From IMG/VR virus record IMGVR_UViG_3300031224_000003, positions 1 to 30,467 of that record: a stretch of 30,467 nucleotides of DNA. The stretch is one strand, 5' to 3'. Position numbers and translations under genes: made by a program. Positions 3,869 through 30,274 of the stretch are shown piece by piece. Within the stretch, counting starts at the first letter, position 1; each line of letters starts with the position of its first letter. This stretch comes from a virus. Below the pieces are notes generated by a model. That model was not told where the DNA came from and searched no databases. It saw only the letters and a program-made list of their open reading frames with translations.

Positions 3869-4357
3869 ATGAATAAATTAGTAGGTATCGGATTAATTCT
3901 TGGCACAATGTTATGGTGGGCAAAAGGAAAAGCAGAAGTAATTGCAGACAATTACATGACCTCGTTTAAGCAATTAGAATATGAAATTGCTGGAATTAAA
4001 AATGTAAGTTGGGTAGGTGGTTTGCCTTTTTTTGGCAACAAGCCTGTAATTCGTTTTTTGTTGGATCTAAAAATTATAAATCCTTCGTTTACAGATTTTA
4101 TACTTGCGGAGCAAAGCACATTAAGGCTTAATAGGCTAGATTTTTTAGACAAGGAGGACAACATTATTGCTTCTAGTGTTGCCAACATAAATAGCATCAA
4201 CCTACCAGCACAAAGCGACACAACAATAAGAGATATAAATGTAGAACTTCCTGTTGCAAAAATACCAGGATTAATTACGCAACTAAGCGACTTTAACCCA
4301 GACAACTTAAATATGCGTGTTAGTTTAACTGTTGCTGGGCAGGAAGTTGTAATATAA
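3869..4357 (+). CDS. LEA/WHy-like protein with an N-terminal membrane anchor
   Basis: A 162-residue protein. Residues 1-20 form a short hydrophobic anchor (LVGIGLILGTMLWWA). The rest looks like a single beta-sandwich: LDLKIINPSFTDF, then alternating strands, and a late IPGLITQL segment. An asparagine-proline turn after a strand of alternating hydrophobic residues is the hallmark of LEA_2/WHy domains. Such domains bind water- or lipid-facing partners in stress proteins; in phages the role is not established. It lies five bases after the holin, so lysis or envelope interaction is the contextual guess. Confidence 0.6.
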   Translation: MNKLVGIGLILGTMLWWAKGKAEVIADNYMTSFKQLEYEIAGIKNVSWVGGLPFFGNKPVIRFLLDLKIINPSFTDFILAEQSTLRLNRLDFLDKEDNIIASSVANINSINLPAQSDTTIRDINVELPVAKIPGLITQLSDFNPDNLNMRVSLTVAGQEVVI

Positions 4358-5278: not shown

Positions 5279-5466
5279 TGGAAAAACAGCTCAGACAGAA
5301 AGTGAAAAAAATACTTGAAAGTATTAGTAAGGATCAAAACCCGACAATATTTGAAGCCATACAAGTAGAATCCGGATATAAAAACATAGAAAACCAGATG
5401 ATAAAAATGGCAATTAACGACGGTATTAGTTTGGAAGCAACGCTATACTACATTGAAAGACAATAA
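5278..5466 (+). CDS. Small hypothetical protein between methylase and helicase
   Basis: 62 residues, charged and largely helical, with no membrane segment. Its ATG overlaps the methylase stop by one base, so translation is probably coupled. The C-terminal text (MAINDGISLEATLYYIE) looks like a small helical domain. I do not recognise a family. Context suggests an accessory subunit of the methylase/helicase module. Confidence 0.65.
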   Translation: MEKQLRQKVKKILESISKDQNPTIFEAIQVESGYKNIENQMIKMAINDGISLEATLYYIERQ

Positions 5467-5469
5467 CGC

Positions 5470-6003
5470 ATGACAAATTTAGAACTGCTTAAAGACAATA
5501 ATTGGTTTATCCAGCATCCCGAAAAGGTGGCTGGAGAAGAATATAAAACGTCCGGTTTTATGTTTCCTCTTATGGTACGTGGTTCTAAAGAAGATGTATT
5601 GCGTGTTGTGGGATTAAAAGATAAGCCTAAAACTATTGAAGATTTTTACAAAAAAAACAATCTAAAAAAAGCTGCTGAAAATTTAACTTACGAACAATGG
5701 AAAGTAGAATCCAAAAAATGGAACGATTATACAGACAAATTAAGTGATAAATTAAATTCTGTTGCTGAAAAAGGCGAAATGGGTTTAGCAAAAAGAACGC
5801 CCGAATTTATAAAAGCTAAAAAAGAATTTGATAATGCTTTTATAAAATTACAATCTTTTAATAAGTCAACGCCTAAAAAATATTCTAAAAAAAGGTTTGA
5901 TGAAAAAACACAAAAAGCTAATCAAAATTACAAAGCCTTAGAAATAGCCAAAGCCAAAGCCATAGCCGTAAAAATAAAGCTAAAATTAGCCACTAAAAAA
6001 TAA
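5470..6003 (+). CDS. Hypothetical protein sharing a basic C-terminal tail with the helicase
   Basis: 177 residues, Lys-rich, with a possibly globular N-terminal third and a helical middle. The final residues, IAKAKAIAVKIKLKLATKK, almost repeat the end of the 1195-aa helicase (IAKAKAIAIKIKLKLAKAK). The codons differ between the two, so the likeness is kept at protein level and is not a recent DNA copy. A shared tail implies a common partner or destination, for example the capsid or another protein of the module. It starts three bases after the previous stop and ends four bases before the helicase. The function is otherwise unknown. Confidence 0.7.
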   Translation: MTNLELLKDNNWFIQHPEKVAGEEYKTSGFMFPLMVRGSKEDVLRVVGLKDKPKTIEDFYKKNNLKKAAENLTYEQWKVESKKWNDYTDKLSDKLNSVAEKGEMGLAKRTPEFIKAKKEFDNAFIKLQSFNKSTPKKYSKKRFDEKTQKANQNYKALEIAKAKAIAVKIKLKLATKK

Positions 6004-6007
6004 AACC

Positions 6008-9000: not shown

Positions 9001-9595
9001 ACCAAAAAATAAGAAGGATATTATAGAGCGATATAACAAAGTAGATGTTTTAATTCAAGAATTTAAACAAGGTAATAGAGAAGATAAGTTTTTAATAGCA
9101 CTAAAAACAAGATACAATGCTTTGTCTGAATATGAAAGCTGGGACAGAACCTTAGACAGTTTTAAAACTTTACTATCTAAATTTTCTAAAATTAAACGTA
9201 GTATATTTAAGTCAAGAGGTGTAGATGAAAACACAAACATTGAAGAAATAATAGCCGATCTTAATAAAGAAAAAACAGAGATTGAAGAAAACTACCAAAA
9301 AATTAACAGTTCAGAATTTAAGCAAAAACTTATAGAGCAAATTCAGGACAAAAAAGAAAAGTTTTCTATTAAAAGTGGTAATTTAGACGAACGAGTTAAA
9401 GAGTTTTCTAAGCTCAATTATTTGATGAGTTATAAAATAAATCAGGTGGACGTAGATGAGTGCAAAATTCCTGTTATAGAATTGCCAGTACAAAACGTAA
9501 GCACCAATAAAAGTAAACAGATACAAATTGCTAAAGCTAAGGCCATAGCAATAAAAATAAAATTAAAACTAGCTAAAGCAAAACTTTCAGCATAA
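6008..9595 (+). CDS. Large SF2 (SNF2-like) helicase, anti-restriction/polyvalent type
   Basis: 1195 residues. Helicase motifs appear in order: Walker A DVGVGKT at about 330-336, DEAH at about 483-486 (YICVDEAHNF), motif III LLTATPF at about 537-543, and motif VI QLEGRIWRQ at about 845-853. The ~300-residue N-terminal region and the coiled-coil-rich ~300-residue C-terminal region match no domain I can name. The protein ends with the basic tail also seen on the 177-aa protein upstream. Large SF2 helicases next to an N6 methylase occur in phages and conjugative elements; P1 DarB, a methylase-helicase packaged in the virion and injected, is the best-known relative in architecture. I infer a DNA-translocating role in genome protection or processing, possibly virion-packaged. 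Confidence 0.85.
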   Translation: MQVYNGSLKDSTKALIQSNSQYVKNVLLKAKGLNAPQGQTYTIDETVAKYNPGLTKDEIKAWVWYRKKQGIPMTSWKSYFVKEKQSLLNSWLEKEIIFFDPTVNDLVPFAIYTFGNVYEKISKLKKQDTTIIKNYGQTVYDKHIEVLENAKPEPLSIQNPIVGERPVILAISTMAKNYKITDLRDDLVGVRPEGDALQSIFKDWLREYPKEQIKKVSAWDIVSVYLQNQNKPRNIDQQEWDAKKKNSRDEGERLFKIFLHEALTLQDQIKIDQIYNEQHNAIALLNHKKIPIGVEISRKFGDNDLDLREAQREGIAFMELVGSGIIAYDVGVGKTMTAIAELCTAIKNGKCKRPLVVVPNSTYENWISEMFGKNGKPGILTGTGIKLNKWYNLGKGYYENIDFTKKIDENTITLVTTQGFEKIGFNEETSKDHFEYLKKVVIQDDYSERKSEKEAEKAEEIIGVGLKDTIADIDDLGIDYICVDEAHNFKKVFTQVKADEEGKQFNISIGGDPAKRAIKLFFLANYIQRKYGRNVMLLTATPFTNSPLEIYSMLSFVAYEYMKNNNIQNLKIFFEQYIHESSEWVVSPSGSIRQDNVVKSFNNRISLQKLINSHINFKTGEEANIKRPCKINIPKFTKPSEESVKQLAENDQVLSYLKLNETQQIKQKNINHEASKGSSKEDPGRILRLMGMSLNNALSPFLLKNSESPVDDTEFVENSPKILYTVECIKTVQQWHNKRGEPLSGQVIYINRGTEYFRYIKSYLMRNLNLKTSLKTISGKKVDEVEILTGKTSKTKKESIKEGFNGGQVKILIGTATIKEGINLQEKSTCLYNLYPDWNPTDIRQLEGRIWRQKNENAYVRIVMPLMENSMDVFIFQKLEEKTARINQLWEKSDRGNVLDEDSLDPEAVKYALITDLEVLFDFEMKKIKENMNRELMIINSKISDIGNYFGIKTSYENYKTSLLASVSELSINNKHLFVDNDKNFYYNNISQVDIDALPKNKKDIIERYNKVDVLIQEFKQGNREDKFLIALKTRYNALSEYESWDRTLDSFKTLLSKFSKIKRSIFKSRGVDENTNIEEIIADLNKEKTEIEENYQKINSSEFKQKLIEQIQDKKEKFSIKSGNLDERVKEFSKLNYLMSYKINQVDVDECKIPVIELPVQNVSTNKSKQIQIAKAKAIAIKIKLKLAKAKLSA

Positions 9596-9606
9596 AACTA
9601 AACACT

Positions 9607-11829
9607 ATGATAACTTTAAGCAATTACAATCAAGAAGTAAGTAACGTAAATTGGTCTAAACTTCCAGCCGAAGTAAAATCGACTAAAAGCGATGTAGAAA
9701 ACATCATGCAATTTTACAACGATGATAAAGATATAAAAGAAGCCGTAGATGATTTTCTAAAGCTTATAAACGAAGCCTACCAAAAAGAAAAAACCATACG
9801 AGAGGTAAAACGTGATGCAAAGTATTTTAAACTTTATGCGCCAAAGCACCAACAGGACGTTGTAACCAGTAATGAATTAATAGACGTTGTAGAACGATTA
9901 GACAAAGAGCTAAAAGAAATACCAAAGCTATACGCCAGCGAGAAAAGCGATCTTCCTCTAAAAGAGCAAATCGTACACGCACATTATTTTTACGGTGGTA
10001 CAGATATATTTATACTGGAAAGCGACGGAAAAGAATTAATGTTCAGCTATGCTATTCTTAACCAAGATTACGAAATGTCCGAAGCTGGCTACCAATCTAT
10101 AAAAGAATTGGTAAATAACGGAAAAATAGAACTAGACTTCTATTGGACCAAAACCACATTAGCCAAAGCTTTATATGCAGTTGATAAAAAAGCGTTTCCA
10201 TTAGAAGAAATTGAAAAGCCAAAAGCTAAAAAAACTGAAAAAAAAGAAGCTAAACCAAAAGCTTCAAATAAAAAAGCTTCAAATAAAAAAGCTACATCTA
10301 AACCAAAGGTAAAAACCACCACCAAAAAAGTAAAAGCAAAAGTAAACGCAGAAACCGTAAGCAATTACGATGCAGAATATAAGTTAATCCGCAGGTTTAA
10401 TAATTTTATAAAATCTAAAATCCCGATTACCTTTAGAAAAATACAGTTGCTTTATATGGCGTTTCAAAAAGCGATAGTAAGCCGTCAGGTTAGAAAAACA
10501 TCTAGCGAAGCAGATTTATTAGCAGAAGTCAACAAAAAAGTAGTTAAGCTATTTAAAGCCGTAGAGGAAGGCGAACGAGATGCAGACGTAAGCTTAGGCG
10601 ATGATGCTCTACAAACTAAAATTACCAAGTTTGTTGGCTCTCAAAAAGTGAATTATGCAGTTACTCTGTTACGATCTTATATTGGCATGAACAATACTAC
10701 ACCAGATAAGCCAAAAGTACAGCGTTTAATTACCCGAATGGAAAACGCTATTAAAAAAGGACGTGTAGATAAAGAAAATAGACTTTACAAGCAAGTTCAG
10801 GAAGCCGTAAAAGATTTAAAAGCTTATGTAAAAGACAATGACGAGATAGACGTAAAAGCCTATGGTTTATCTGGAGCTAAAAAAAAACGTAAAACGCTAA
10901 ATATCTTAGACAAGATGAAAAACAAAAGCGGTTTAAAAGGCTCATGCAGTTGTTCTGAAAAAAAAAAAGATAGTCAGGACCTAACAGAACCTAAACCTGA
11001 AGATTTTGAAATAATAGACGATTATGATTTTGATGATGATAGTTATGATGATTCGATTGAAGATGAAACGCCAAAAAAAGAAGTCATAAAGCATACAGCG
11101 AAGTCTGTTAGTAGAAAAACAAAACGCCATGGCAAAGTTACCAACGCTCAACAGTTAGGGAATAATCAAGGCGAGTTTTGGGATATTGGCGGAGAAACAG
11201 GCAAATTCTTACAGCGAGTAGAGAAAAAGCCGTTTCATAGTGTAGCCATAACCTTAGACGGCCACCAGGGCGCAGGCAAAACTACTATGCTTTACCAAAT
11301 GGTAAACGATTTTAGTAAGTCAGGATCAACCCTCTTTGCAAGTCTGGAGCAACACCCACAAAGTGTATTAAGTCAGGATAAGATTAACGCCTACATAAGC
11401 GATCCTAGCCTAGTTGATATGGTAGGCGATTTTGACGATGCAAAAGAATTTTACAATATTGTAAAAGACTATGATTTCATTTTTATTGATAGCTGGCAAA
11501 AGTTGATCAATATGATTGGTAGAATAAGCTTCGATGAAGATTTACGCAAAAAGTTTGACGGCAAAGTGTTTGTAGTCGTGTTTCAGCAAACTACAACTGG
11601 CAGAACGAAAGGGGGAGCAGATATTGTTTTTGACGGAGATATCATCATAAAACTTGTCAAAGCTAAAAGCTTTCAAGACAACTATGCTTACTTTGACAAA
11701 AATAGATACACTCAAATCCCATTAGAAAATATTAAATACAACATTGCTAATGCTAGATGTGATATTGAAGGCGAAAATAGCAACTCGAATCATCCTCAAC
11801 AAAGTGTAGAAACTTTTGTGGTACAGTAA
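9607..11829 (+). CDS. Multidomain polyvalent-type protein with C-terminal RecA/RadA-like ATPase
   Basis: 740 residues with several visible parts. Residues ~105-195 resemble DUF2958 (HAHYFYGGTDIFILE then LFSYA-like and FYWTKTTLAKAL segments), a domain common in mobile-element proteins. Residues ~203-248 are a Lys/Ala-rich linker resembling histone H1, including a doubled KASNK. Residues ~250-440 are helical. A Cys pair (CSC) lies near 445 and an Asp-rich stretch at ~465-490. The C-terminal ATPase has Walker A GHQGAGKTT at 552-560 and Walker B FIFIDSW near 624-630, in a RadA/DnaB-like arrangement. A role in recombination, replication or DNA delivery is likely. It starts 11 bases after the helicase and is followed by a strong terminator. 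Confidence 0.75.
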   Translation: MITLSNYNQEVSNVNWSKLPAEVKSTKSDVENIMQFYNDDKDIKEAVDDFLKLINEAYQKEKTIREVKRDAKYFKLYAPKHQQDVVTSNELIDVVERLDKELKEIPKLYASEKSDLPLKEQIVHAHYFYGGTDIFILESDGKELMFSYAILNQDYEMSEAGYQSIKELVNNGKIELDFYWTKTTLAKALYAVDKKAFPLEEIEKPKAKKTEKKEAKPKASNKKASNKKATSKPKVKTTTKKVKAKVNAETVSNYDAEYKLIRRFNNFIKSKIPITFRKIQLLYMAFQKAIVSRQVRKTSSEADLLAEVNKKVVKLFKAVEEGERDADVSLGDDALQTKITKFVGSQKVNYAVTLLRSYIGMNNTTPDKPKVQRLITRMENAIKKGRVDKENRLYKQVQEAVKDLKAYVKDNDEIDVKAYGLSGAKKKRKTLNILDKMKNKSGLKGSCSCSEKKKDSQDLTEPKPEDFEIIDDYDFDDDSYDDSIEDETPKKEVIKHTAKSVSRKTKRHGKVTNAQQLGNNQGEFWDIGGETGKFLQRVEKKPFHSVAITLDGHQGAGKTTMLYQMVNDFSKSGSTLFASLEQHPQSVLSQDKINAYISDPSLVDMVGDFDDAKEFYNIVKDYDFIFIDSWQKLINMIGRISFDEDLRKKFDGKVFVVVFQQTTTGRTKGGADIVFDGDIIIKLVKAKSFQDNYAYFDKNRYTQIPLENIKYNIANARCDIEGENSNSNHPQQSVETFVVQ

Positions 11830-14648: not shown

Positions 14649-17600
14649 ATGCCAAATCACAAATACGACCTTTCTAAAATTTATGAAGTTACCCGAGACG
14701 GATTAGATATTCTGCTGCATTACTACCCAAAAGCAGGAGATGTTGGTAGGTTTATAAATTTTAAAATTAGAGAAGAAGACAACGCTAGTTCTAGAATATT
14801 TAAGCCAACTGATTCAGATTGCTATGTAATTAAAGATTTTGGTGGTAAGTCTTATAACCCTATATCATTAGTTTGTGAAGAAGAAAACTTAGGATTTTAC
14901 GATGCCTTGGTTTTTCTTTACAAGCTTTTCAATATACAAGGATTAACTATTCAGTTTTCTAAAGCAACATATAAAGATAAAATTGCTGATGCAGATGCAA
15001 ACATAAACGATCATACGTTTGATTATAAAAAAGAGCTGACCGATTTTGAATTAAAAAACATTGGTCCTTTTGTTACCCAGCAACATTGCGAAGATTTTAA
15101 GCTGCATACTGTAAATAAATACAGCAGAATTAAGCAGTTTAAGCCTGGTACACGCAAATTTGAACAGTATGGCGAAAAGCTAGTAGAACAAACAACTGTG
15201 TCTAGCGAAGCATATCCTTTGTATGTGTTTAAGCATAAAGATTGGCAAAAAATTTACAAGCCATTAAACGAAGATGCTCGTTTTCGTTTCTCGTATGCAG
15301 GAACGAAACCAAAAAATCACATTTTTGGTTTAGACTTGGTTAAAAATGAAATAGATCGACTTAAAAAAGCGTATGAAAAGGATTGTTCTGAAGCGGTAAA
15401 AGAAAAATTATCATTACCTTCAAAAGAGAAGTATAAAATAGACACAGTAATTATAGCTTCTGGAGATAGGGATGGTTTAAATCTATACTCTCTGGGTTAT
15501 TTTGTTATTTGGTTAAACAGCGAAACAGCAAAACTTCCTTACGATACCTACAAGTTTTTAAAAGAAAACATACACAACCTATATTATTGTGGAGATATAG
15601 ATCAGGTTGGCTTTATTGAAACGAAACAGATTGCTAAACAATACAGCGATATAAAAATTATAAGGCTTCCACAATGGCTTAAAAACCACACTTATAGAGG
15701 AAAAGGCAAAAAAGATGTAAAAGATTTTGTAGATATTTTAAATGATAAACTAAAAAATGAAAACGAAAGCTTTGATTACGTTTGTAGTAGTTTCAAAAAA
15801 TTAGTTGATTCTGCTTTGCCTTATCAATTTTGGTTTTCTAAATATGATAATAAAGGCAACTTTAAGGGGTGGGACATAGACAATATTGCCATGATTCAGT
15901 TTTTGGAGTTTAACGGCTTTTACAAGTATGCAGACGAGTTTAGCACAGAAGATTATGAGTACATTAAGTTTTCAAACGGTACAAATATTATACAATCTGT
16001 AAAGAAGGAAGATATTGAAGGATTCCCGGAGCAGTATTTAAAAGAAATTTATGCGCCAAAATCGCTTATCAATTTTGTTATACGTTCTACTCACGTAAAA
16101 ATTACCAAATTAAAGTCTTTACCAGTTTTGAAGCCAAACATACAAACGCATGGTTGGGATTTTCAACGTTTTTATTTTAGAAACACCATCATTAAAGTTT
16201 CAAAAGATAAAATTATCAAAGAAAAATACGATGAACGAAACGACTTTCATGTATTTGAAAATCAAATTTTAGAAAAGGATATTCACTTCAATCCAAAAAA
16301 ACCACCATTTAAAATTGAATATGACGAAGAAACCCAAAAACATACGTTTACGAAAATAGATGAAAACAACGATTATTTCAATTTTATAATTAATACCTGC
16401 CGTATTCATTGGCGAAAAAGCCATGAGGAACATTTTGAAGATGCTATTACAAAAATTGAAAACGAACCACACCTAACCCAAAAACAAAAAAAACTGCAAA
16501 TTGATAAAGTTGTAAAGGATCAAACAGAATATCGAGTAAAAAACAAATTCAAAATTACAGAAGAAGCGCTGCCATTGATTTATAATGAAGAACAAAAGCA
16601 GGCTTTGTTAAATCGAATCTTCTCAAATGGTTATTTGCTCCATCAACATAAAGTAATGAGCAGAGCTTGGCTAGTTTACGCCATGGATTATCGTATAAGC
16701 GAAAACAACGATAGCAATGGTGGCTCGGGTAAATCTTTAGTTTTTCATAAGATGTACAAACAACTTTTTAAAAATATCAAAACAATTAATGGCCGAGATA
16801 AAGAGCAGATTAAAGATAAGTTTATGCTTTCTGATGTTACCAAATTTACTTCATTAATTTGTGTTGAAGATGCAGATAAATCTTTTCCTTTTGAAATAGT
16901 TTACAACGCAGTAACCGATCAAATTTCTATACGTGTAATGCAAAAAGGGTATGTAGATATACCTTTTGGAGATGCGAGCAAATTTGTAATTACTACCAAT
17001 TTTGCATTGTACGAACAAGGATCAAGCAATAGGCGAGTATTGTTTAATATTTTTTCAGATTATTACCATGACGTTACAGACATAGATGCTGAAAAATACA
17101 CTCCAAAAAATGATTTTTCTACGGATTTTTTTTCAGACACCTGGTCTAACGAGCAGTACAGTAAATTTTATGAATATTGTTTTTATTCGCTTCAATTTTA
17201 CTTAAATACAGAAACAAAGATAGAAGCTCCAAACGAAAATGTACGGAAACGAAACGCAATGCAAAAGATAGGCCAGTATGACGGATTTTTCGATTGGGCT
17301 AGTTTGTATTTTTTTCCAAAAGATGGAAATTTAGATTGTTATATTTCAAAATCAGATATGTATAATCATTTTAAAGAAAAATCGGGTAACAACAAAATGA
17401 AAGCTGGCCCATTTAAAACTAAGCTAAAAGAATATTGCAAATTTGCTGGCTTTAAATTTAACCCTAAAGGTTGTAATTCTTTACAAGCAGATGGAAGAAT
17501 TATTAAAAGCATAGACGGAGATACTTATGAGTTTGTCTACATTAAGCAGTCTACTGTACCGCTAACAAATTATTGGCAAGTTCCTAAGCAATTAGATAGT

Positions 17601-17753
17601 GTATATACACAACTATACTTTTCTGATCCTAAACCAGAACTAGAAACAGACGAGGAAAATCAAATAAAAACAAAAGACGAAGGATTTACAGCACCAGATC
17701 CAAGCGAATCAGCTTTTGGTTACGATGATGAAGATATTGTAAACGATATATAA
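14649..17753 (+). CDS. Primase-helicase (Toprim-like plus SF3 helicase)
   Basis: 1034 residues. The N-terminal ~100 residues resemble a primase CHC2-type fold (YVIKDFGGKSYNPISLV, GFYDALVFLY) but lack the zinc-binding cysteines. A Toprim-like region follows, with IIASGDRDGLNLYSLGY at about 268-284 and YYCGDIDQVG at about 312-321 supplying the acidic residues. The C-terminal helicase has Walker A NGGSGKS at about 691-697, Walker B LICVEDAD at about 736-743 and a sensor FVITTN near 779, the SF3 pattern. Such proteins unwind and prime at phage or plasmid origins. It lies 1.4 kb after the repeat array, so it is probably the replication initiator-helicase of this genome. No DNA polymerase is visible, so the host enzyme is presumably recruited. 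Confidence 0.8.
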   Translation: MPNHKYDLSKIYEVTRDGLDILLHYYPKAGDVGRFINFKIREEDNASSRIFKPTDSDCYVIKDFGGKSYNPISLVCEEENLGFYDALVFLYKLFNIQGLTIQFSKATYKDKIADADANINDHTFDYKKELTDFELKNIGPFVTQQHCEDFKLHTVNKYSRIKQFKPGTRKFEQYGEKLVEQTTVSSEAYPLYVFKHKDWQKIYKPLNEDARFRFSYAGTKPKNHIFGLDLVKNEIDRLKKAYEKDCSEAVKEKLSLPSKEKYKIDTVIIASGDRDGLNLYSLGYFVIWLNSETAKLPYDTYKFLKENIHNLYYCGDIDQVGFIETKQIAKQYSDIKIIRLPQWLKNHTYRGKGKKDVKDFVDILNDKLKNENESFDYVCSSFKKLVDSALPYQFWFSKYDNKGNFKGWDIDNIAMIQFLEFNGFYKYADEFSTEDYEYIKFSNGTNIIQSVKKEDIEGFPEQYLKEIYAPKSLINFVIRSTHVKITKLKSLPVLKPNIQTHGWDFQRFYFRNTIIKVSKDKIIKEKYDERNDFHVFENQILEKDIHFNPKKPPFKIEYDEETQKHTFTKIDENNDYFNFIINTCRIHWRKSHEEHFEDAITKIENEPHLTQKQKKLQIDKVVKDQTEYRVKNKFKITEEALPLIYNEEQKQALLNRIFSNGYLLHQHKVMSRAWLVYAMDYRISENNDSNGGSGKSLVFHKMYKQLFKNIKTINGRDKEQIKDKFMLSDVTKFTSLICVEDADKSFPFEIVYNAVTDQISIRVMQKGYVDIPFGDASKFVITTNFALYEQGSSNRRVLFNIFSDYYHDVTDIDAEKYTPKNDFSTDFFSDTWSNEQYSKFYEYCFYSLQFYLNTETKIEAPNENVRKRNAMQKIGQYDGFFDWASLYFFPKDGNLDCYISKSDMYNHFKEKSGNNKMKAGPFKTKLKEYCKFAGFKFNPKGCNSLQADGRIIKSIDGDTYEFVYIKQSTVPLTNYWQVPKQLDSVYTQLYFSDPKPELETDEENQIKTKDEGFTAPDPSESAFGYDDEDIVNDI

Positions 17754-22252: not shown

Positions 22253-24106
22253 ATGAGCATAGATTTAGCATTACAAAGGAGAGTTGTTTCATCTGGAAAA
22301 TTTGGCAGTTTGATTGAAAATTCAAGTTGCCAAACTTCCTTTTTAGGAAACGGAAATACTCACCTTTCAATTCAGCTAATTGCTAAGCTTGCAAAAAAGT
22401 ATCAAAAGCAGTCGGAACGCTGGGCGAAAGAACTTCAAAAAAATTCGCAAAGCCAAACGATAAAGGCTAATTATGATTTTCTTTATAATCATTTTCAGTA
22501 CAAAGCAGACGGTATTCAGCAAAACATATACAGTCCAAAATGCGCATGGCATAAACGCTATGAGGGTATAGATTGTAAATCGTACACACTCATTGCCAGT
22601 AGCTTATTGCTTATCCAGGGATATAACCACTTTTTGCGTAAAATCACCCAATTGGGCGATGCTCCAGGTGATTTTTCTCACGTATATGTAGTGATTCCAA
22701 AAGACCAAAACACCAATGATCTTAAAAAAGGTTACGATGTAATTGATGCAACAACGCACAACAACATAGAGCCACATTTTATACAAAAACATGATGTATT
22801 TATGGAAGCAATGCCACATATAGGACTAAATGGAACAAGATTCAACTGTTCACCTAGCTACGCAAAAAAAGTAGTAAAAGCCAGTAATGCTGGTAAGAAG
22901 TTACGCATAGGTAAAAGTGTTGGCGGTAGAAATTTAGCCAAATGGCGATGGGGCTTATTAGGCTCTCCAATGCCAAAAGCAGCGCAAAGCTTATTAAACA
23001 TTAAGCAAAATATAATTCAATCTGGTTTTTCTGAAAGCACTTTTCAACAAATGCTGGATTACGTGCTAGAAATTACTTCTGTTGGGTTTCCAAGTTCTCA
23101 AATTGTCTTTACTCCTACTTTAGAAGGGTTTAGAATTTCAGATACATTTGGTAAAGGCCTAACTTTTAAGCATCCTAACCCACAAAACGGAAAATGGCTT
23201 GAAAAAGTATTACTTCAAAACAATTCAAGGTTAAGAGGTTTACGTAGCTCGGAAGGAAGCTCAGAAGGAAGCTGGACTGACAATTTACTTGATGATATAG
23301 ATTGGGACGAAGTTTTAGGTAGTATAGGATCTCTTTTTAGCGGCGGTTGGTATGATAAAAACGAAGTAGAAGCAGATGCCGAAACAATCGTAAATTATTT
23401 TTCAGGATTAATCAATGGGATCAATCAAAATGTAAATAATCCTATTTTATTAGGGGAAAAAGTAGCGGAATTTAAAGCAATGTCAGAATTGCTTAGAAAA
23501 ATTGCCGCTTGCGCTGAAACTAGATGTTACGAAAATGGAAGTTGGTCAAGTGGTACCAAAAAAGGAATGAAAACAATCAAAACATTGGTAACACGCATCA
23601 AAATAAATGGCGGTGGATTAATATACAGTTGGTTGAGTTCTTATTTTGAAAAAGGAAGTCAAGTACAATCTTATGAACTTAATGCAAATCAATTTTACAA
23701 GCCAGGCGGTTCTATTTTTAAACTAATCCAAAATCCAAACGGTACAGGAAAAGGCATGACGTACACACAACAGGCAACTGTTTTTTCATATATGCCAAAA
23801 GCAAACGTACAAATTAAACAATTAGAATTTGTGCCGGAATTGATAGAAAATGATAGCGTAAGCGGAACATCTATTTTAAACTCTCTTCAAAATATTCTTG
23901 TAAGTACTGGCGCTATTCCTAGTAATAATTCAGGCAATACTACTTCAGGCGGTGGAGCTTCAACAGATGCAAATTGGCAAGGTCAAGATCCTTCTGTTTT
24001 AAACACCAACAAAACAAGCAATGCTTCATTGTGGATATTAGGCGCAATTGGAGCTGGATTACTTTTTAAAAATCAATTGTCAAATCAAATTAAGCCAGCA
24101 AAATGA
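22253..24106 (+). CDS. Transglutaminase-like cysteine peptidase with C-terminal membrane anchor
   Basis: 617 residues. Residues ~70-190 fit the transglutaminase/cysteine-peptidase fold: Cys 108 in GIDCKSYT, His 143 in DFSHVYVVIP and Asp 165 in YDVIDATTHN supply the expected Cys-His-Asp triad. A Ser/Gly/Asp-rich linker occupies ~333-370. The C terminus has a Gly/Ser-rich spacer and one membrane segment (about 587-603, LWILGAIGAGLLF) with a basic end. It is the first gene of the virion module, overlapping the next by four bases (ATGA). A membrane-held peptidase could mature virion proteins or cut peptidoglycan cross-bridges during entry. The triad is visible; the virion role is inference. Confidence 0.75.
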   Translation: MSIDLALQRRVVSSGKFGSLIENSSCQTSFLGNGNTHLSIQLIAKLAKKYQKQSERWAKELQKNSQSQTIKANYDFLYNHFQYKADGIQQNIYSPKCAWHKRYEGIDCKSYTLIASSLLLIQGYNHFLRKITQLGDAPGDFSHVYVVIPKDQNTNDLKKGYDVIDATTHNNIEPHFIQKHDVFMEAMPHIGLNGTRFNCSPSYAKKVVKASNAGKKLRIGKSVGGRNLAKWRWGLLGSPMPKAAQSLLNIKQNIIQSGFSESTFQQMLDYVLEITSVGFPSSQIVFTPTLEGFRISDTFGKGLTFKHPNPQNGKWLEKVLLQNNSRLRGLRSSEGSSEGSWTDNLLDDIDWDEVLGSIGSLFSGGWYDKNEVEADAETIVNYFSGLINGINQNVNNPILLGEKVAEFKAMSELLRKIAACAETRCYENGSWSSGTKKGMKTIKTLVTRIKINGGGLIYSWLSSYFEKGSQVQSYELNANQFYKPGGSIFKLIQNPNGTGKGMTYTQQATVFSYMPKANVQIKQLEFVPELIENDSVSGTSILNSLQNILVSTGAIPSNNSGNTTSGGGASTDANWQGQDPSVLNTNKTSNASLWILGAIGAGLLFKNQLSNQIKPAK

Positions 24107-25122
24107 TAACTCAAAAACCCATTAGGCAATTAAATGGTTTTTTTGGAAGCCTACTAAAAACGGTAATAAAAGGCGTAGTAGCTAGTATTGCTTTATCCGT
24201 AGGCGGACCTATTTTTGGAAGCGCAGCAGCTTATGGTTTTAACCGTCTGATGAATAATTGGACGGAAGATAGTGATTTTTGGAACGTAGGCAGTAAGTCA
24301 GGATCTATACAACCGAATCAGCCAGGGCAATCTCAATTAGGCAATAATGAAGCTAAAAACAAAGAAATTGCCGAGTGGATAGAAAGCAAATTAAACGAAA
24401 ATTGGAGACAAAACTTTTTTGTTTCCTTGTCAAGCCAAAATCCTAATTTTTACAAAACTGATGTATTTCGAGTAAATCTTAATAAAACATTACTGAAGCT
24501 TGAAGCTTTACGCTTATTTTATAAAGGACAAACAGCCGTTACCTCTTTACAACCAATTGGCAAGAAAAGCGGATTTGTAAACGAAAACGAATTAGATCAG
24601 GCTTTAGAAAATGCAGTTATAAAGAACAAAGCAGATATTTTTTACATTATTTCCCTAGTACTTAGAAACAATTATGAAAGAATGATGAAAGAAGCCGGGC
24701 AGCCTTTATTTGTCAAAAAGCTAAAAAACTTCAAGGCAAATGACTATGCAATTGTGCATACACCGGAGTTTATTTCATTTGATTTTAAAGCAAAAACAGA
24801 TGTCTATTTATATGTTGCCAGCGCAAACGAAAACGCAAACGTAAAATATAAAGATGGAATGACAGCCAGTACAGCTAATAGTCCTGCCGAATCACCTAAC
24901 ACTCCGTTGTTGATAAATGTTTTAAATGAAGGACCATCCATAAATGAACTTTCTTCAAGCACTAATCAATTAAATATAGAAGTTGATGCAAACGTAAAAC
25001 CAAACGTAAAGCCAAACGTAAATAATCAACCTATTTGGAAAAATAAAACAGTTCAAGGCGTTGCTGCAAGCGCAGCCCTATTGTTTTTTCTATTTAAAAC
25101 AAAAAAAAAAAGTAAATATTAA
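24103..25122 (+). CDS. Membrane protein of the virion module
   Basis: 339 residues. A hydrophobic, Gly/Ala-rich N-terminal region (about 13-48) and a C-terminal membrane segment (about 316-331, VAASAALLFFLF) with a very basic end (KTKKKSKY) frame a soluble middle that is helical (~75-210) then beta-rich (~220-260). A KPNV triplet repeats three times near 300. No family is recognised. It shares the anchor-plus-basic-tail layout with its upstream neighbour, and the overlap implies coupled expression. It is probably a virion membrane protein, possibly binding DNA on the inner face. Confidence 0.65.
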   Translation: MITQKPIRQLNGFFGSLLKTVIKGVVASIALSVGGPIFGSAAAYGFNRLMNNWTEDSDFWNVGSKSGSIQPNQPGQSQLGNNEAKNKEIAEWIESKLNENWRQNFFVSLSSQNPNFYKTDVFRVNLNKTLLKLEALRLFYKGQTAVTSLQPIGKKSGFVNENELDQALENAVIKNKADIFYIISLVLRNNYERMMKEAGQPLFVKKLKNFKANDYAIVHTPEFISFDFKAKTDVYLYVASANENANVKYKDGMTASTANSPAESPNTPLLINVLNEGPSINELSSSTNQLNIEVDANVKPNVKPNVNNQPIWKNKTVQGVAASAALLFFLFKTKKKSKY

Positions 25123-25145: not shown

Positions 25146-25601
25146 ATGAAAACACCAAGTACAGATCAGATAATGGACGGCCTTGAAAATGTCGTAGCCA
25201 TTTCAGTTGGAGCAATGGTAGGCAATGGAATTGCTGCTTTATTACCAGCTGAGAACAATGCAATTTACAAGGGCGCAGCTTCAGTAGCAGCCGTTGCAGG
25301 ATCAGTAATGATTAAGGGTAAATCAAGAGGAAGCAAAGCCATAGCGAATATGCTAAGAGGTTCAGCGGCTACACACGCAGTTTCCCTTACACAAGATCAG
25401 GCACAAAAATTAGTAGCTATTAATCCGGCACCAACCGTAGTAGACAAATTTGTTGAAGGCGCAGTTGGATTACGTGGTAACGAGTATTCTGGTTACCAAA
25501 AGATGCCTAGATTAACGGGAGGTCGAGCAATAATGCCAAGCTTAGACAGCTTTTCTTCTATGGACGAAGGTTCACAAGATAGAGCAGCATCGCTGGTATA
25601 A
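25146..25601 (+). CDS. Small membrane protein upstream of the capsid candidate
   Basis: 151 residues. The first ~60 are dominated by Ala/Gly/Val-rich hydrophobic stretches (VVAISVGAMVGNGIAALL, then GAASVAAVAGSVMI), followed by a basic patch (GKSRGSKA) and a polar C-terminal half. This layout suits an abundant small protein lining a virion membrane. It lies just before the capsid candidate. No family is recognised. Confidence 0.6.
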   Translation: MKTPSTDQIMDGLENVVAISVGAMVGNGIAALLPAENNAIYKGAASVAAVAGSVMIKGKSRGSKAIANMLRGSAATHAVSLTQDQAQKLVAINPAPTVVDKFVEGAVGLRGNEYSGYQKMPRLTGGRAIMPSLDSFSSMDEGSQDRAASLV

Positions 25602-25651: not shown

Positions 25652-26278
25652 ATGAAAACAAAAATTAGATATGGAATTGCAGTCGCTTTTCTGTACACAA
25701 TCGCAACAGCAACAGGCTTTTCAAACAGCCTAAACAGTTTAATTGACAACGGCAAAGTGTCGTTGGAAGATTACGAGCTAGTTGCACGAGTAGACGTTAG
25801 TGGTGCATCTGGTATTCACGAATTAGTGAATGATGAGTTGAACATCGCGCAAGGAATTGTCAATTTTGACAAAGGGAAACTATCCCAAAACCAAGGATTT
25901 ATATTTGATAAAATCACGATTGGTTATTCTTTAGGAGTTGCAGATACAGATACATCAGCAGGCGCAGTTTCTTACGCCACAGCACTTACAGCTGCATTAA
26001 GAAATGCCGAGTTTGAGATCCTACAAGATGGAAAAGTAGTGTTATCGCTTCCAGCAGCTTCATTGTCTAATCCTTATACCTCTGGTAGTAAACAAGAGGA
26101 TAAATGGACAGAGCTAGAACGCTTTTACGCATTAAGCGATGAAGAAACAATGACTTGGAGATTAAAGTTTCCTAGCGGTGTAAGTGTGCCTGCTTTTACA
26201 GGCGCAGGAGGAACGCAACAATCATTGGTAGAAGTTCGCTTAGGTGGCTTTAGAACAGCCAAAAAGGTAACAGCATAA
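25652..26278 (+). CDS. Candidate major capsid protein (single jelly-roll-like)
   Basis: 208 residues, rich in predicted beta strand: YELVARVDVSG, FIFDKITIGYSLGV, AEFEILQDGKVVLSLP, ERFYALSDEETMTWRLKF and SLVEVRLGGFRTAKK. Eight or so alternating strands with a final short strand suit a single jelly roll, and the length fits the small capsid proteins of tailless membrane phages of the P23-77 type. The N-terminal ~25 residues are moderately hydrophobic, a possible signal or membrane-facing arm. A strong terminator begins 26 bases after the stop, as expected for a highly expressed gene with reduced read-through. No similarity to the HK97 fold is seen. This is an inference from strand pattern and context; a minor spike or pilin-like role remains possible. 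Confidence 0.5.
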   Translation: MKTKIRYGIAVAFLYTIATATGFSNSLNSLIDNGKVSLEDYELVARVDVSGASGIHELVNDELNIAQGIVNFDKGKLSQNQGFIFDKITIGYSLGVADTDTSAGAVSYATALTAALRNAEFEILQDGKVVLSLPAASLSNPYTSGSKQEDKWTELERFYALSDEETMTWRLKFPSGVSVPAFTGAGGTQQSLVEVRLGGFRTAKKVTA

Positions 26279-26304
26279 TATAACCTTCATCTAATTAATA
26301 TTTC

Positions 26305-26346
26305 AAAAAGGTTACCAATGCCAACGGTGTGTTGGTAGCCTTTTTT
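26305..26346 (+). terminator. Strong intrinsic terminator directly after the capsid candidate
   Basis: AAAAAGGTTACCAA (26305-26318) pairs over 14 bp (one G-T wobble) with TTGGTAGCCTTTTT (26332-26345), with a 13-base loop and a T tract to 26346. It lies inside an otherwise continuous gene cluster, so it probably sets the expression of the upstream gene above that of the downstream genes. Confidence 0.9.
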
Positions 26347-26367
26347 GATTATAAAAAGAACAATATA

Positions 26368-26739
26368 ATGGAAATAATGAATCAAAATATAAGAATTGCA
26401 AGCGTTACTTGTTCAATTCCAAATACAGGAACAACGTCTGGCGATGAAGTGTTTGAAAATATACCGGGTCAAATTATCGGATTTTCAACCAAAACAATTA
26501 AAGGCGATGATGAAGCTGCTTTAAAGGTGGCTATCAAAGAAAATGACAACGAGGTAGTAAGACCGATGCACCCGGCTTTTTCTGAAACGACAGGAAGAAG
26601 CTCGTTCTTTCATGGGCTTGTACCAGTTAAGGTTACAAATCCAAGCCGAATGACAGCAGTAGTAACAAGCAACAAAGCGACACGTAACGAGGTAATTGTA
26701 GAAGTTATTGTTGCGTACAAACACAATGACCAATGCTAA
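26368..26739 (+). CDS. Small beta-rich protein, possible minor capsid component
   Basis: 123 residues from the ATG at 26368 (a second ATG at 26377 would give 120). A longer frame begins with a GTG at 26329, but that lies inside the terminator hairpin and is rejected. Strands alternate through the protein (NIRIASVTCSIP, GQIIGFSTKTI, LVPVKVTNPSR, VIVEVIVAYKH) with no helix-rich part, so a small beta barrel is likely. It overlaps the next gene by seven bases. With the 208-aa protein it could form a two-protein capsid lattice or a vertex complex. Confidence 0.6.
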   Translation: MEIMNQNIRIASVTCSIPNTGTTSGDEVFENIPGQIIGFSTKTIKGDDEAALKVAIKENDNEVVRPMHPAFSETTGRSSFFHGLVPVKVTNPSRMTAVVTSNKATRNEVIVEVIVAYKHNDQC

Positions 26740-27002
26740 AAATTGACGTAGGCGTAGCCGTTATCACGAAAAACGTAAGACAGCATAAAGTAGAAGGCAT
26801 TAAACCGTCTTTTACTAATGCTGGCAATACGTCTATTCCAGTTTTAGGAATTATTCTTCTTCCTGGCGAAGTAAGAACGCTGAATTTTGACAATAATATA
26901 GTAAAAACGCATATAGACATCTTTTTTACTCCTTCTGCCAATCCAGCAAATGACATTAATAAATTAGTGATACACACAGGAATACCTTGTAAAAATGGAT
27001 AA
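26733..27002 (+). CDS. Small beta-rich protein, possible vertex or minor capsid protein
   Basis: 89 residues, strand-rich (LKIDVGVAVITKNVRQH, IPVLGIILLPGEVRTLNF, THIDIFFTP). It overlaps both neighbours by seven or eight bases, a sign of coupled synthesis in fixed ratio. No family is recognised. Its size and fold suit a penton, cement or spike-base protein. Confidence 0.6.
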   Translation: MLKIDVGVAVITKNVRQHKVEGIKPSFTNAGNTSIPVLGIILLPGEVRTLNFDNNIVKTHIDIFFTPSANPANDINKLVIHTGIPCKNG

Positions 27003-27786
27003 ACTCAACAAAATACAAAGTGCTTTAGAAAACGCATCCAAAAATTCTTTTATTGTCGTAAGACGGCACAAAAGTCATACAAAATTAGCAAAGGCCACTT
27101 TGGCTGCTATACATGAACTAGGAAACATAAAAGATTATTTTTTTGACATTCACAAAAAGCACAATGTAGACAAAGTTGATGTAGAATTTAGAAAACCGAG
27201 AGGAACTTCAAGCGTGCCTTTTGGCGAAATTATTACCTTAGAGTTTGTTAGCTCCCCAGCAACAAGCCCGACACCAATTCCGCAAGGTCTTGGTGTGGGA
27301 ACTGCTGGCGGTCTAAATGGTGGATTAGGAGCGTTAGGCGAATTGTACTTTAACAAAATTAGCGAAGAAGGAAGGGATTATAAAAGCAAGTATGAAAGCA
27401 AAGTTATTGAAAATGAAGTTCTTAAAGATAAAGTAAACGAGCTGCATCGAAACATTGATAAGCTTGATTTAGAACATAAATTCCAATCCGAAGGCGAAAA
27501 AGACCGTAAACCATTCATTGACAAAGAAACCGGCACTATGATTATGGGCGTTTTAGGTCCTATTTTACAAAACGCAATGAGTAAAGGAAGCGCAACCGGA
27601 CTTAATGCAGTAGATACATCTTTAAATGAGCAGCGGAAAAACATCATAAAGTATGCACAAATGGCACAAGTACCCGATTCAATTATGGATCGTTTAAACT
27701 TTGTTTTGCTGCAATTTCTAAATGAAAAACAAGACTTCATCACGAAATTAGAAAATATAATACAACAGCAAAATGAACCAACATAG
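26995..27786 (+). CDS. Coiled-coil protein with Gly-rich hinge, probable assembly or virion protein
   Basis: 263 residues in three parts: a basic N-terminal domain (~1-85) with mixed strand and helix, a Pro/Gly-rich hinge (~88-115, including GLGVGTAGGLNGGLGALG), and a helical C-terminal half with a coiled coil at ~125-165 and another helix pair at the end. Hinged coiled-coil proteins often act as scaffolds or linkers in virions. It overlaps neighbours on both sides. The role is inferred from architecture only. Confidence 0.6.
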   Translation: MDKLNKIQSALENASKNSFIVVRRHKSHTKLAKATLAAIHELGNIKDYFFDIHKKHNVDKVDVEFRKPRGTSSVPFGEIITLEFVSSPATSPTPIPQGLGVGTAGGLNGGLGALGELYFNKISEEGRDYKSKYESKVIENEVLKDKVNELHRNIDKLDLEHKFQSEGEKDRKPFIDKETGTMIMGVLGPILQNAMSKGSATGLNAVDTSLNEQRKNIIKYAQMAQVPDSIMDRLNFVLLQFLNEKQDFITKLENIIQQQNEPT

Positions 27787-27929: not shown

Positions 27930-28424
27930 ATGATACCAATATTAGCAAATAAAGCAGGAAGTTTTGTTACCGATAATGTAAAGCCAATTATTATAAGTAT
28001 TGGCGTATTAACAGGATCTTATCTGTTATACAAATGGATTAGTAAACCACGAGTAAGCGTTCAGTTTGATGCTTCTTATCCTTCAGCAAGTATTTCTGAC
28101 AACAAAGCAAAGCAAATTGCAAATGTTCTGTTTAATGCTATGTCAAACCCAGGAACAGACGAAGATGCAATTTTTAATGCACTTGCAGGATTAGGATTCA
28201 ACGATTTTGTAAAAGTGAGTAATTTTTTTGGCGTAAAATATTACGACACAGTTTTAGGCGTAGAAGGGGGATCTCTTTTTAACGATCAGTATGATTTAAG
28301 AGATTGGCTATATTTTGAACTAGGCAATTCAGATTTAGAGAAACTACATAATGTTGCTCCAAACTTAATCACTTTTGATAATCAGTTTAAAACTTTAAAA
28401 CGTGGGGCAAACAATTTAATTTAA
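27930..28424 (+). CDS. Membrane-anchored protein with annexin-like repeat
   Basis: 164 residues. One membrane segment near the N terminus (about 18-35, PIIISIGVLTGSYLLYKW) is followed by a soluble domain. There, SNPGTDEDAIFNALAGL, then FNDFVKVSNFFGVKY and LRDWLYFELG, follow the pattern of a single annexin repeat (GTDE loop, spaced hydrophobic helices, closing L..EL). Annexins bind membranes through calcium; a lone repeat in a phage membrane protein suggests a membrane-docking or fold reuse role. The resemblance is by eye and may reflect only a four-helix fold. Confidence 0.6.
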   Translation: MIPILANKAGSFVTDNVKPIIISIGVLTGSYLLYKWISKPRVSVQFDASYPSASISDNKAKQIANVLFNAMSNPGTDEDAIFNALAGLGFNDFVKVSNFFGVKYYDTVLGVEGGSLFNDQYDLRDWLYFELGNSDLEKLHNVAPNLITFDNQFKTLKRGANNLI

Positions 28425-28434
28425 AAAATTAGCT

Positions 28435-28818
28435 ATGAAATACGAAAAAATAATTTCAATTAACAATAAATATGGTCAGTCAATTTCATTAGTCGAAATA
28501 ACCAACACTACCAAAAAAACAGCAACCATTTCAAATGAAGCGGGGATTGCTACAATTGTTGGAGAGGACGAAGATATTATTTTGATTTCCCATATTAGTT
28601 TTGAGGACGAACAATTTAATTTTAAAAATTTACCGTCTAAAATTGACCTTTTTCCAAGCGATGATCTTTTAGATGAAGTTGTTATCAATTCGGAAAAAAA
28701 AAGCCTATTCAAGCCAATTGCAATAGCTGCAAGTGTGCTTTTTCTGTGGGCAAAATTAAGAGGAAAACCAAAAGGTTTAAATGCTGCTGCAAATCAACCG
28801 AGAAAAATAATATTATGA
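28435..28818 (+). CDS. Membrane-anchored carboxypeptidase-regulatory-like protein
   Basis: 127 residues. Residues ~25-80 fit the CarboxypepD_reg-like beta sandwich found at the N terminus of SusC/TonB-dependent receptors: ATISNEAGIATI, then DIILISHISFED, and the typical closing LDEVVI. A membrane segment follows (about 92-108, FKPIAIAASVLFLWAK) with a basic tail. The order is reversed compared with receptors, where the domain precedes a barrel. In a phage structural cluster this suggests borrowing of a host envelope domain. It overlaps the lysozyme gene by ATGA. Confidence 0.65.
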   Translation: MKYEKIISINNKYGQSISLVEITNTTKKTATISNEAGIATIVGEDEDIILISHISFEDEQFNFKNLPSKIDLFPSDDLLDEVVINSEKKSLFKPIAIAASVLFLWAKLRGKPKGLNAAANQPRKIIL

Positions 28819-29498
28819 GTAGTTTTAGTTTATATCAACCTATGTTGCTTCAAGTAGAAGGCGGATTTCAAAAAATGCCAAACGACAACGGCAATTACAA
28901 TAGTTTAGGGCAATTAATAGGCACTAATTTTGGTATTTCGGCACGTTGGTACGAAAGCATTTTAGGCAGGCCAACTACGCTCACTGATATTTTAAATTTA
29001 ACGAAAAATAAAGCTACACAATTGTATGAACAATACTTCTGGAACGCAATGCGAGCTGGCGAAATAAACAATCAATCTTTAGCCAATACCTATGCAGATC
29101 ATGGCATAAACGCAGGACCCGGACGAGCAGTAAAAATGATACAATATTTGTTGATTAATGAGTACGGTAAAAATATAGCCTTAGATGGTGCAATTGGTCC
29201 GCAAACATTGGGAGCTATAAACAGCGTAAATGCAGCAGCGTTAACAAATGACTTTAACGACCTTAGAAAGCAATACTACAACTATTTAGGCAATAATCTT
29301 AGTCAAGTAATGTCTAGGTATAAATCGTTTTTTCAAAATGAATTGAAGATAAAAGCAACTGCTTCACAAAGTAGTTTTGTCAAAGGTTGGATAAACAGAA
29401 TAGCCACTTTTGCAATAGAAAATACCGGATCAAGTATTGGTGTAGTTACCGTATTAATTGGTTTGGGAATTTTCTTTGCAGTAAAATATACTAACTAA
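28815..29498 (+). CDS. GH108 lysozyme with C-terminal membrane anchor
   Basis: 227 residues from the ATG at 28815, which overlaps the previous stop (ATGA); an earlier in-frame start at 28746 lies deep inside that gene. The N-terminal half is the glycosyl hydrolase 108 domain with the expected catalytic glutamate in VEGG (Glu 15) and the NFGIS segment. The middle carries the associated PG_binding_3 domain (ADHGINAGPGRAVK, DGAIGPQTLGAI). Uniquely, the C terminus ends in a membrane segment (about 203-222, IGVVTVLIGLGIFFAV). A membrane-anchored muramidase encoded among virion genes suggests an entry enzyme held in the virion membrane, perhaps also used in lysis with the holin at 3378. Confidence 0.85.
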   Translation: MSSFSLYQPMLLQVEGGFQKMPNDNGNYNSLGQLIGTNFGISARWYESILGRPTTLTDILNLTKNKATQLYEQYFWNAMRAGEINNQSLANTYADHGINAGPGRAVKMIQYLLINEYGKNIALDGAIGPQTLGAINSVNAAALTNDFNDLRKQYYNYLGNNLSQVMSRYKSFFQNELKIKATASQSSFVKGWINRIATFAIENTGSSIGVVTVLIGLGIFFAVKYTN

Positions 29499-30274
29499 TG
29501 GGATTTGATTTAATAAAGACAGGGGTAGATGGAGAAGGCGGTAAGTTTGTAAACACAAACAACGTACCCACAACGCAAGGTGGTTATTTTGCAGGAGAGC
29601 CAGCAACACCGGCCGAAGGTTTAAGCTTATCAGAAGCTTTTGATAAATTCCTCTTTCCTTCAACGCAACCTAGCATAACTTTCAATGTAGATAATGAAAA
29701 CATCGAAAAAGGTACAGATTACGCCAAAAGCATAGCTATTACCTTTAATCAAAATGATGCAGGATCTTTAGTTGGTTATTCACTAGAAAAAGACGAAACA
29801 GAAGTCTCTACAACACAAAACACTGCTTTTGCAGCAAATAATGTAATAGCTAACTTTACATTACAAGGATTTGTTAGTTATGCAGCAAATAGTGTTTTAA
29901 GCGCAGGTATAATAAGTACTCCGCTAAGAACAATTACACAAAGATTAAAAGTTTGGTATGGTGCATTATCAGCAATACCAACTAACTCAACACAAGTTAG
30001 AGCAATAGCAAATGATGTTTGGGATAACGCAAATACAATTACATTACAGACAGGAACAACTAATAATAAATTCGTAGTTGCTAGACCTACAAGTTTAGGA
30101 ACAGAAGCTAGTTTGCAAGCACAAGATATAACAAATAATGTAAGTTACACCTATGATTTTGTAGGAACAGTTAATGTAGTATTACCAAACGCTACAACAG
30201 AAGAGTACGGAATTTATGTGTTAGAAGTAGATAATGCTTACACTACTAATGCACAACATTTAATACAGAGTTAA
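29498..30274 (+). CDS. Fibre/spike-like protein
   Basis: 258 residues, no membrane segment. Its start overlaps the lysozyme stop (TAATG). The N-terminal ~60 residues (Gly-rich, ending LSEAFDKFLFPSTQPS) look like a linker or trimerisation neck. The C-terminal ~110 residues (VWYGALSAIPTNSTQVR to NVVLPNATTEEYGIYVL) resemble a domain I have seen in tail-fibre proteins of Bacteroidetes phages. It starts the three-gene spike cluster that continues across the seam. A host-attachment role is the likely reading. Confidence 0.7.
   Translation: MGFDLIKTGVDGEGGKFVNTNNVPTTQGGYFAGEPATPAEGLSLSEAFDKFLFPSTQPSITFNVDNENIEKGTDYAKSIAITFNQNDAGSLVGYSLEKDETEVSTTQNTAFAANNVIANFTLQGFVSYAANSVLSAGIISTPLRTITQRLKVWYGALSAIPTNSTQVRAIANDVWDNANTITLQTGTTNNKFVVARPTSLGTEASLQAQDITNNVSYTYDFVGTVNVVLPNATTEEYGIYVLEVDNAYTTNAQHLIQS

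Follow-up and report, generated by a model that had tools for sequence, protein, structure and literature searches.

A candidate single jelly-roll capsid gene in a circular 30-kb virus genome related to Salisaeta icosahedral phage 1

Which protein builds the shell of this virus, and to which class of virions does it belong? The window analysed here (30,467 nucleotides) is an entire IMG/VR virus record. Its ends are an exact 127-bp direct repeat and the map is therefore circular with 30,340 bp. A sequence-only reading of this genome had pointed to three adjacent genes for strand-rich proteins of 208, 123 and 89 residues, the first followed by a strong terminator, and had suggested that they form a jelly-roll capsid of the P23-77 type. 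We consider it highly probable that the virus is instead a tailless phage related to Salisaeta icosahedral phage 1 (SSIP-1), with the 208-residue protein (P208) as major capsid protein (MCP), folded as a vertical single jelly roll, and with the assembly and transcriptional read-through proposed below. This reading is built on genes and predicted folds; the Foldseek TM-scores are low and the models were computed from nine and seven sequences. The capsid region contains the following features:

25652..26278, + strand: P208, 208-residue predicted single jelly-roll major capsid protein (AlphaFold2, Foldseek, HHalign to SSIP-1 gp46/gp45; present in all loci)
26305..26346, + strand: intrinsic terminator separating the capsid gene from the remainder of the operon (hairpin and T run; recurs in relatives)
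26368..26739, + strand: P123, 123-residue beta-sandwich protein, candidate penton or minor shell protein (AlphaFold2, fold matches, family, gene position of gp47)
26733..27002, + strand: P89, 89-residue putative shell-associated protein (HHalign; gene position of SSIP-1 gp48)

Predicted folds and the terminator behind the capsid gene

All three reading frames lie where they had been placed, P208 at 25652-26278 and the other two overlapping by 7 nt. The mechanically listed frame of P123 begins with a GTG at 26329 and its start is the ATG at 26368. The AlphaFold2 model of P208 (pLDDT 78.4, pTM 0.79; alignment of nine sequences) has N-terminal helices at residues 2-20 and 25-32 and, as expected for a strand-rich protein, eight main strands (36-48, 55-59, 83-95, 120-125, 128-134, 153-161, 167-172 and 187-204). 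The comparison with known jelly-roll capsids that had been suggested gave as top Foldseek match in the PDB the capsid protein of Sulfolobus polyhedral virus 1 (SPV1; 6oj0_A, E 2.4e-4, prob 1.0). VP17 and VP16 of P23-77 were also among the matches, and so were C1q-like and spike domains. The TM-scores to the SPV1 protein are low (0.41/0.47), and hence the model supports the fold class, a single jelly roll, and not a close match. No significant Pfam or PHROG family was obtained for P208, P123 or P89, PDB sequences searched with phmmer and with a profile yielded nothing meaningful, and profiles of the 208 and 123 families found no second match among the window proteins.

P123 is modelled as a seven-strand sandwich (pLDDT 74, pTM 0.67; alignment of seven sequences). 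Its PDB fold matches, namely Ena3A, GOLD domains and HHIV-2 chain b, plausibly fit a jelly-roll-like sandwich without settling the fold. The model thus confirms the beta-rich nature foreseen for P123, for which a jelly roll is plausible. The family is present in 14 of the 16 loci of our first set. By HHalign it reaches 81% to intermediate or deeper members, and those reach only 26% to the small-virus group described below; P123 and P208 show no sequence kinship (HHalign 3%). We see about an even chance that P123 is a penton or minor shell protein. For P89, one of whose relatives gives a short BLASTP match to SSIP-1 gp48, a role as shell partner is suggested more tentatively. Cysteine is rare in both proteins, and yet one lies within the last eight residues in 14 of 15 P123 and in all 11 P89 members of the window group. 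As a guess from this conservation, P123 and P89 may be joined by a disulphide bond between their C-terminal cysteines.

The terminator noticed behind the first gene is indeed there, with arms at 26305-26319 and 26332-26346 followed by a T run (MFE -21.4 kcal/mol, z = -3.0). A consensus scan detected no excess of terminators in the region (6 found, 6.9 expected). Of 16 loci, at least 11 (WIN, L002, G146, G040, G145, G257, G197, G279, G094, G195 and G118) show a hairpin with a T run directly 3' of the P208 homologue, and the sequences of these hairpins are unrelated. L042 and L043 likewise have a hairpin and T run in the gap after P208. It is this recurrence at the same gap, and not the consensus scan, that lifts the terminator beyond chance, and a recurrence so tied to one position supports the idea that the terminator helps to keep the capsid mRNA above that of the downstream genes. 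Termination after the capsid gene would be partial, with only some transcripts continuing into the genes for vertex and minor proteins, and such partial read-through could provide the high hexon to penton ratio.

Kinship with SSIP-1 and comparison with other viruses

SSIP-1 is a tailless phage with an internal membrane and a T=49 capsid that contains two MCP types (PMC6356626, PMC6260650, PMC4958249). According to a 2019 review its genome is hardly similar to anything in GenBank (PMC6356626). We compared profiles of the window group with 34 SSIP-1 proteins by HHalign. P208 matched gp46 (47%) and gp45 (36%), and the next best protein reached 0.7%. Taken by itself either percentage is weak, but when gp45 and gp46 were shuffled forty times each the maximal score was 17.5, compared to 29.9/31.6 for the real sequences. 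A fold search in BFVD returned I1ZBH9 and I1ZBI0 (211/256 aa, prob 1.0), accessions that carried no name and that fit SSIP-1 gp46/gp47 by length and order. In SSIP-1, gp34 is a Transglut_core protein and gp40 an AAA_25 protein, and gp34, gp40 and gp44-gp48 are annotated as structural. Together with the predicted fold, this homology to structural proteins bears out the earlier proposal that the gene in front of the terminator encodes the main capsid protein. The other cassette genes and two genes of the conserved set are:

22253..24106, + strand: 617-residue transglutaminase-like virion protein, hydrophobic C-terminus; homologue of SSIP-1 gp34 (HHalign 97.4%)
24103..25122, + strand: 339-residue protein with hydrophobic ends; position after the transglutaminase gene conserved
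25146..25601, + strand: P151, 151-residue membrane protein just upstream of the capsid gene, TM-like segment 16-34; position of SSIP-1 structural protein gp44
26995..27786, + strand: 263-residue coiled-coil cassette protein (cluster 4, 14 of 16 loci)
27930..28424, + strand: 164-residue cassette protein, hydrophobic N-terminus (cluster 5)
28435..28818, + strand: CarboxypepD_reg-like protein of 127 residues whose C-terminus is hydrophobic; same place in the cassette as the relatives' ~140-residue protein
28806..29498, + strand: GH108 endolysin with C-terminal TM segment 208-226 (Pfam 7.6e-17); homologue of SSIP-1 gp31 (HHalign 98.5%)
29498..30274, + strand: 258-residue protein opening the variable spike/receptor module (position, variability across relatives)
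3869..4357, + strand: 162-residue LEA-like (LEA_2-like) membrane-anchored protein of the conserved set (LEA family, HHalign 95.5% between groups)
9607..11829, + strand: 740-residue protein, RecA-like ATPase at its C-terminus; homologue of SSIP-1 structural protein gp40 (HHalign 96.2%)

In the transglutaminase-like protein the Cys (DCK), His (HVY) and Asp residues are kept in the aligned members including gp34, and for the homologue from locus L044 gp34 was the sole match among 50,697 phage records. The best SSIP-1 match of P151 is gp44, a weak one (HHalign). The SSIP-1 order gp44-45/46-47-48 equals the order 151-208-123-89 of the window, where P123 and P89 are tied to gp47 and gp48 by position and weak similarity. 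The 740-residue protein is a candidate for the packaging ATPase, of a type other than HerA or FtsK; the region ahead of its ATPase domain resembles an internal head protein encoded by Xanthomonas phage Rb1.

Thus, the window holds a gp34-type transglutaminase-like protein, a gp40-type ATPase, an MCP homologous to gp45/gp46 and the gp44-48 gene order of SSIP-1. It also shares with SSIP-1 a gp31 counterpart, a circular genome and the lack of a detectable HerA or FtsK. SSIP-1 differs in its two 208-type genes, its 43.8-kb genome and its hypersaline host, whereas the window has 30.3 kb and a replication module with primase-helicase, SNF2 and methyltransferases, and most of its proteins no longer match those of SSIP-1 by BLAST. 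Since it has one 208-type gene, we place it in the same lineage as a single-MCP variant. The cassette proteins have hydrophobic segments, and the phage is probably membrane-containing. By these sequence comparisons the nearest relative is SSIP-1 and not P23-77. In the literature that we searched, with most subscription journals outside its scope, no report of this lineage beyond SSIP-1 was found, and a prior description is possible.

P23-77 and the Sphaerolipoviridae resemble the window phage in their vertical single jelly rolls, and differ in having two MCPs and another gene content. A shell of this type would use P208 and P123 as two major capsid proteins that form joint pseudo-hexamers. Two MCP types have been described for SSIP-1 (PMC6356626, PMC4958249), VP16 and VP17 appear among the fold matches of P208, and P123 is beta-rich and conserved. 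However, the matches of the 208 family in SSIP-1 are gp45 and gp46, to neither of which the P123 family is similar, and L044 likewise carries two tandem 208-type genes. In addition, the position of the P123 gene after the terminator suggests fewer copies of its product. With one jelly-roll MCP-type gene and a P123 family unrelated to it in sequence, a VP16/VP17-like pair is unsupported in the window. The packaging ATPase of P23-77 and the Matsushitaviridae is of the FtsK/HerA type. Six-frame searches, in which the controls worked, found neither HerA (DUF87, PF01935) nor FtsK (PF01580) nor Terminase_6C in the window, and P23-77 was absent from the results of every sequence search. We therefore find the two-protein shell that had been suggested unlikely, and retain P208 as the MCP of an SSIP-1-related phage.

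Less probable still is a role of P208 as a spike on the surface or as a minor jelly-roll protein, with the true MCP encoded elsewhere in the cassette. The C1q-like and spike domains found among its matches share the jelly-roll fold, but P208 is homologous to gp45 and gp46, which are SSIP-1 structural proteins of similar size. It is present in one copy at the same place in nearly every relative, usually with a terminator behind it, the window has no other protein that matches the 208 or 123 profiles, and the variable genes are the spike genes.

Outside the capsid region the window has a lysis set of holin, GH108 endolysin and Rz-like spanin, and the following genes:

4574-9595: N6 methyltransferase and an SNF2 helicase that resemble DarB-like antirestriction proteins
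14649-17753: primase-helicase (DUF5906), common to Polaribacter phage Leef_1 and Bacteroides phage BT-TP2
817-2094: possible receptor-binding protein with leucine-rich repeats, located in the variable spike region

The replication module appears, from its sequence similarities, to have been swapped with unrelated phages. In the Persicobacter relative an ArdC-like antirestriction protein adjoins the ATPase gene. That the virus is tailed and its genes for terminase, portal and tail have diverged past detection is hardly credible: Leef_1, which shares the primase, is tailed, and holin and endolysin are of ordinary phage types, but none of the 30 window proteins scanned matched terminase, portal or tail families of the Caudoviricetes significantly in Pfam or PHROGs, the six-frame search for Terminase_6C was empty, and the cassette matches that of a tailless phage. 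The P208 model and the gene content thus agree with the tailless, single jelly-roll virion that had been suggested.

SPV1 (Portogloboviridae) provides the best fold match, a single jelly-roll MCP (prob 1.0 at the low TM 0.41/0.47), and has one hexon protein and a separate penton protein (PMC8459092), as we propose for the window phage. It is an archaeal, non-lytic virus with an A-form DNA core, and no genes in common with the window were found by sequence; the relatives of the window sit in Bacteroidota genomes. FLiP and Cellulophaga phage phi48:2 are tailless and infect the same host phylum, and FLiP has an internal membrane. The FLiP group is characterized by a double jelly-roll MCP, ssDNA and a Rep protein (PMC5894146). 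None of these was seen in the window, and a FLiP-like phage was rejected for lack of Rep and double jelly roll. Two further candidates were set aside: Flavobacterium prophage fF4, considered since prophage finders miss it, is a myovirus (PMC7761591), and the Charybdis elements are described as 4.6 kb in size and from marine archaea (PMC12324425).

Relatives in Bacteroidota genomes and small circular viruses

The 617-residue protein led to the L002 prophage of Aquimarina spongiae DSM 22623 (45% identity), and P208 to plasmids of Persicobacter sp. JZB09 (26%, E 7e-8). The latter strain has the element twice, once on a circular plasmid of 47.6 kb and once within a 632-kb replicon (L003, L004). 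A three-sequence profile was positive in 15 of 399 Flavobacteriaceae genomes (~4%), and in a phylum-wide sample 8 of 395 Bacteroidota genomes (2%) gave matches; the eight loci of this search, on seven contigs, all have the cassette and one P208. In genome G445 there are two elements of this kind, separated by 105 kb (L105, L106). By gene clustering, all 16 loci of the first set encode both P208 and the transglutaminase-like protein. The cassette order there begins with the transglutaminase-like protein (~550 residues), followed by proteins of ~300, ~155, ~200 (P208), ~125 (P123) and ~90 (P89), and continues with the ~270-residue coiled coil, ~60, ~180, ~140, endolysin, variable spike genes, LEA-like protein and RecA-like ATPase. 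A putative tyrosine integrase (cluster 12, named from its sequence and not by family search) adjoins the element in six loci.

Relatives in IMG/VR were reached only by alignments of the transglutaminase domain. Scans of viral contigs with the single 208- and 617-residue sequences and scans based on A1, A4 and A5 returned none, and tblastn of the 208-, 617- and 263-residue proteins against phages gave nothing. One relative has 37 kb and two have ~45 kb, while most matches are contigs of ~9-13.6 kb, and the cassette is found in dozens of small viral contigs. Twelve contigs of 11.6-13.6 kb (L061, L062, L065, L067, L072-L074, L084, L088, L089, L091 and L092) have exact end repeats of 86-127 bp and hence look like complete circular genomes. 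The order in the small viruses is LEA, transglutaminase, P151, P208, P123, coiled coil, small proteins, P89 and spike, with AAA_25 ATPase and lysozyme genes elsewhere; the LEA-like gene is usually just before the transglutaminase-like gene. A Pfam/PHROGs scan of ten proteins of one member (L051) recognised no polymerase or Rep. HHalign between the window group and this 12.5-kb group reaches 99% for the transglutaminase, 96% for LEA, 92% for P151, 90% for P89, which keeps its position, and 68% over 136 columns for P208. The orphan SSIP-1 is now linked to prophages in the sampled genomes and to many small circular viruses. Culturable hosts are at hand with Aquimarina spongiae and Persicobacter, in which the virion might be inducible.

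Proposed shell assembly and the number of capsid genes

In the assembly that we propose, P208 barrels would stand upright in homo-hexameric capsomers, like VP4 in SPV1, and the two N-terminal helices might sit at the base of the shell or at an internal membrane. The beta sandwich of P123 could close the five-fold vertices in the manner of SPV1 VP10 or HCIV-1 VP9, and P89 might be a partner of P123 or a cement protein.

The window and nearly all relatives have a single P208 gene. Tandem P208-type pairs are found in SSIP-1 (gp45/gp46) and in L044 (2715-3446 and 3530-4186, 243 and 218 aa). In a tree the L044 pair groups with single-copy relatives, apart from the SSIP-1 pair. The SSIP-1 branches are long and the backbone of the tree is weak, and thus an independent duplication can only be suggested. 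On balance we favour the view that a large and mostly unrecognised lineage of tailless jelly-roll phages, the majority integrated or very small, extends across the phylum Bacteroidota, and that SSIP-1 was the first of them to be seen. Most members would have one MCP and SSIP-1 and L044 two in tandem, and the 12-kb members would be complete viruses in which no polymerase or Rep is recognisable. One- and two-MCP shells within one lineage mean that the step to two jelly rolls could be watched, possibly more than once, and such a natural series bears on the origin of double jelly-roll capsids (PMC8812541).
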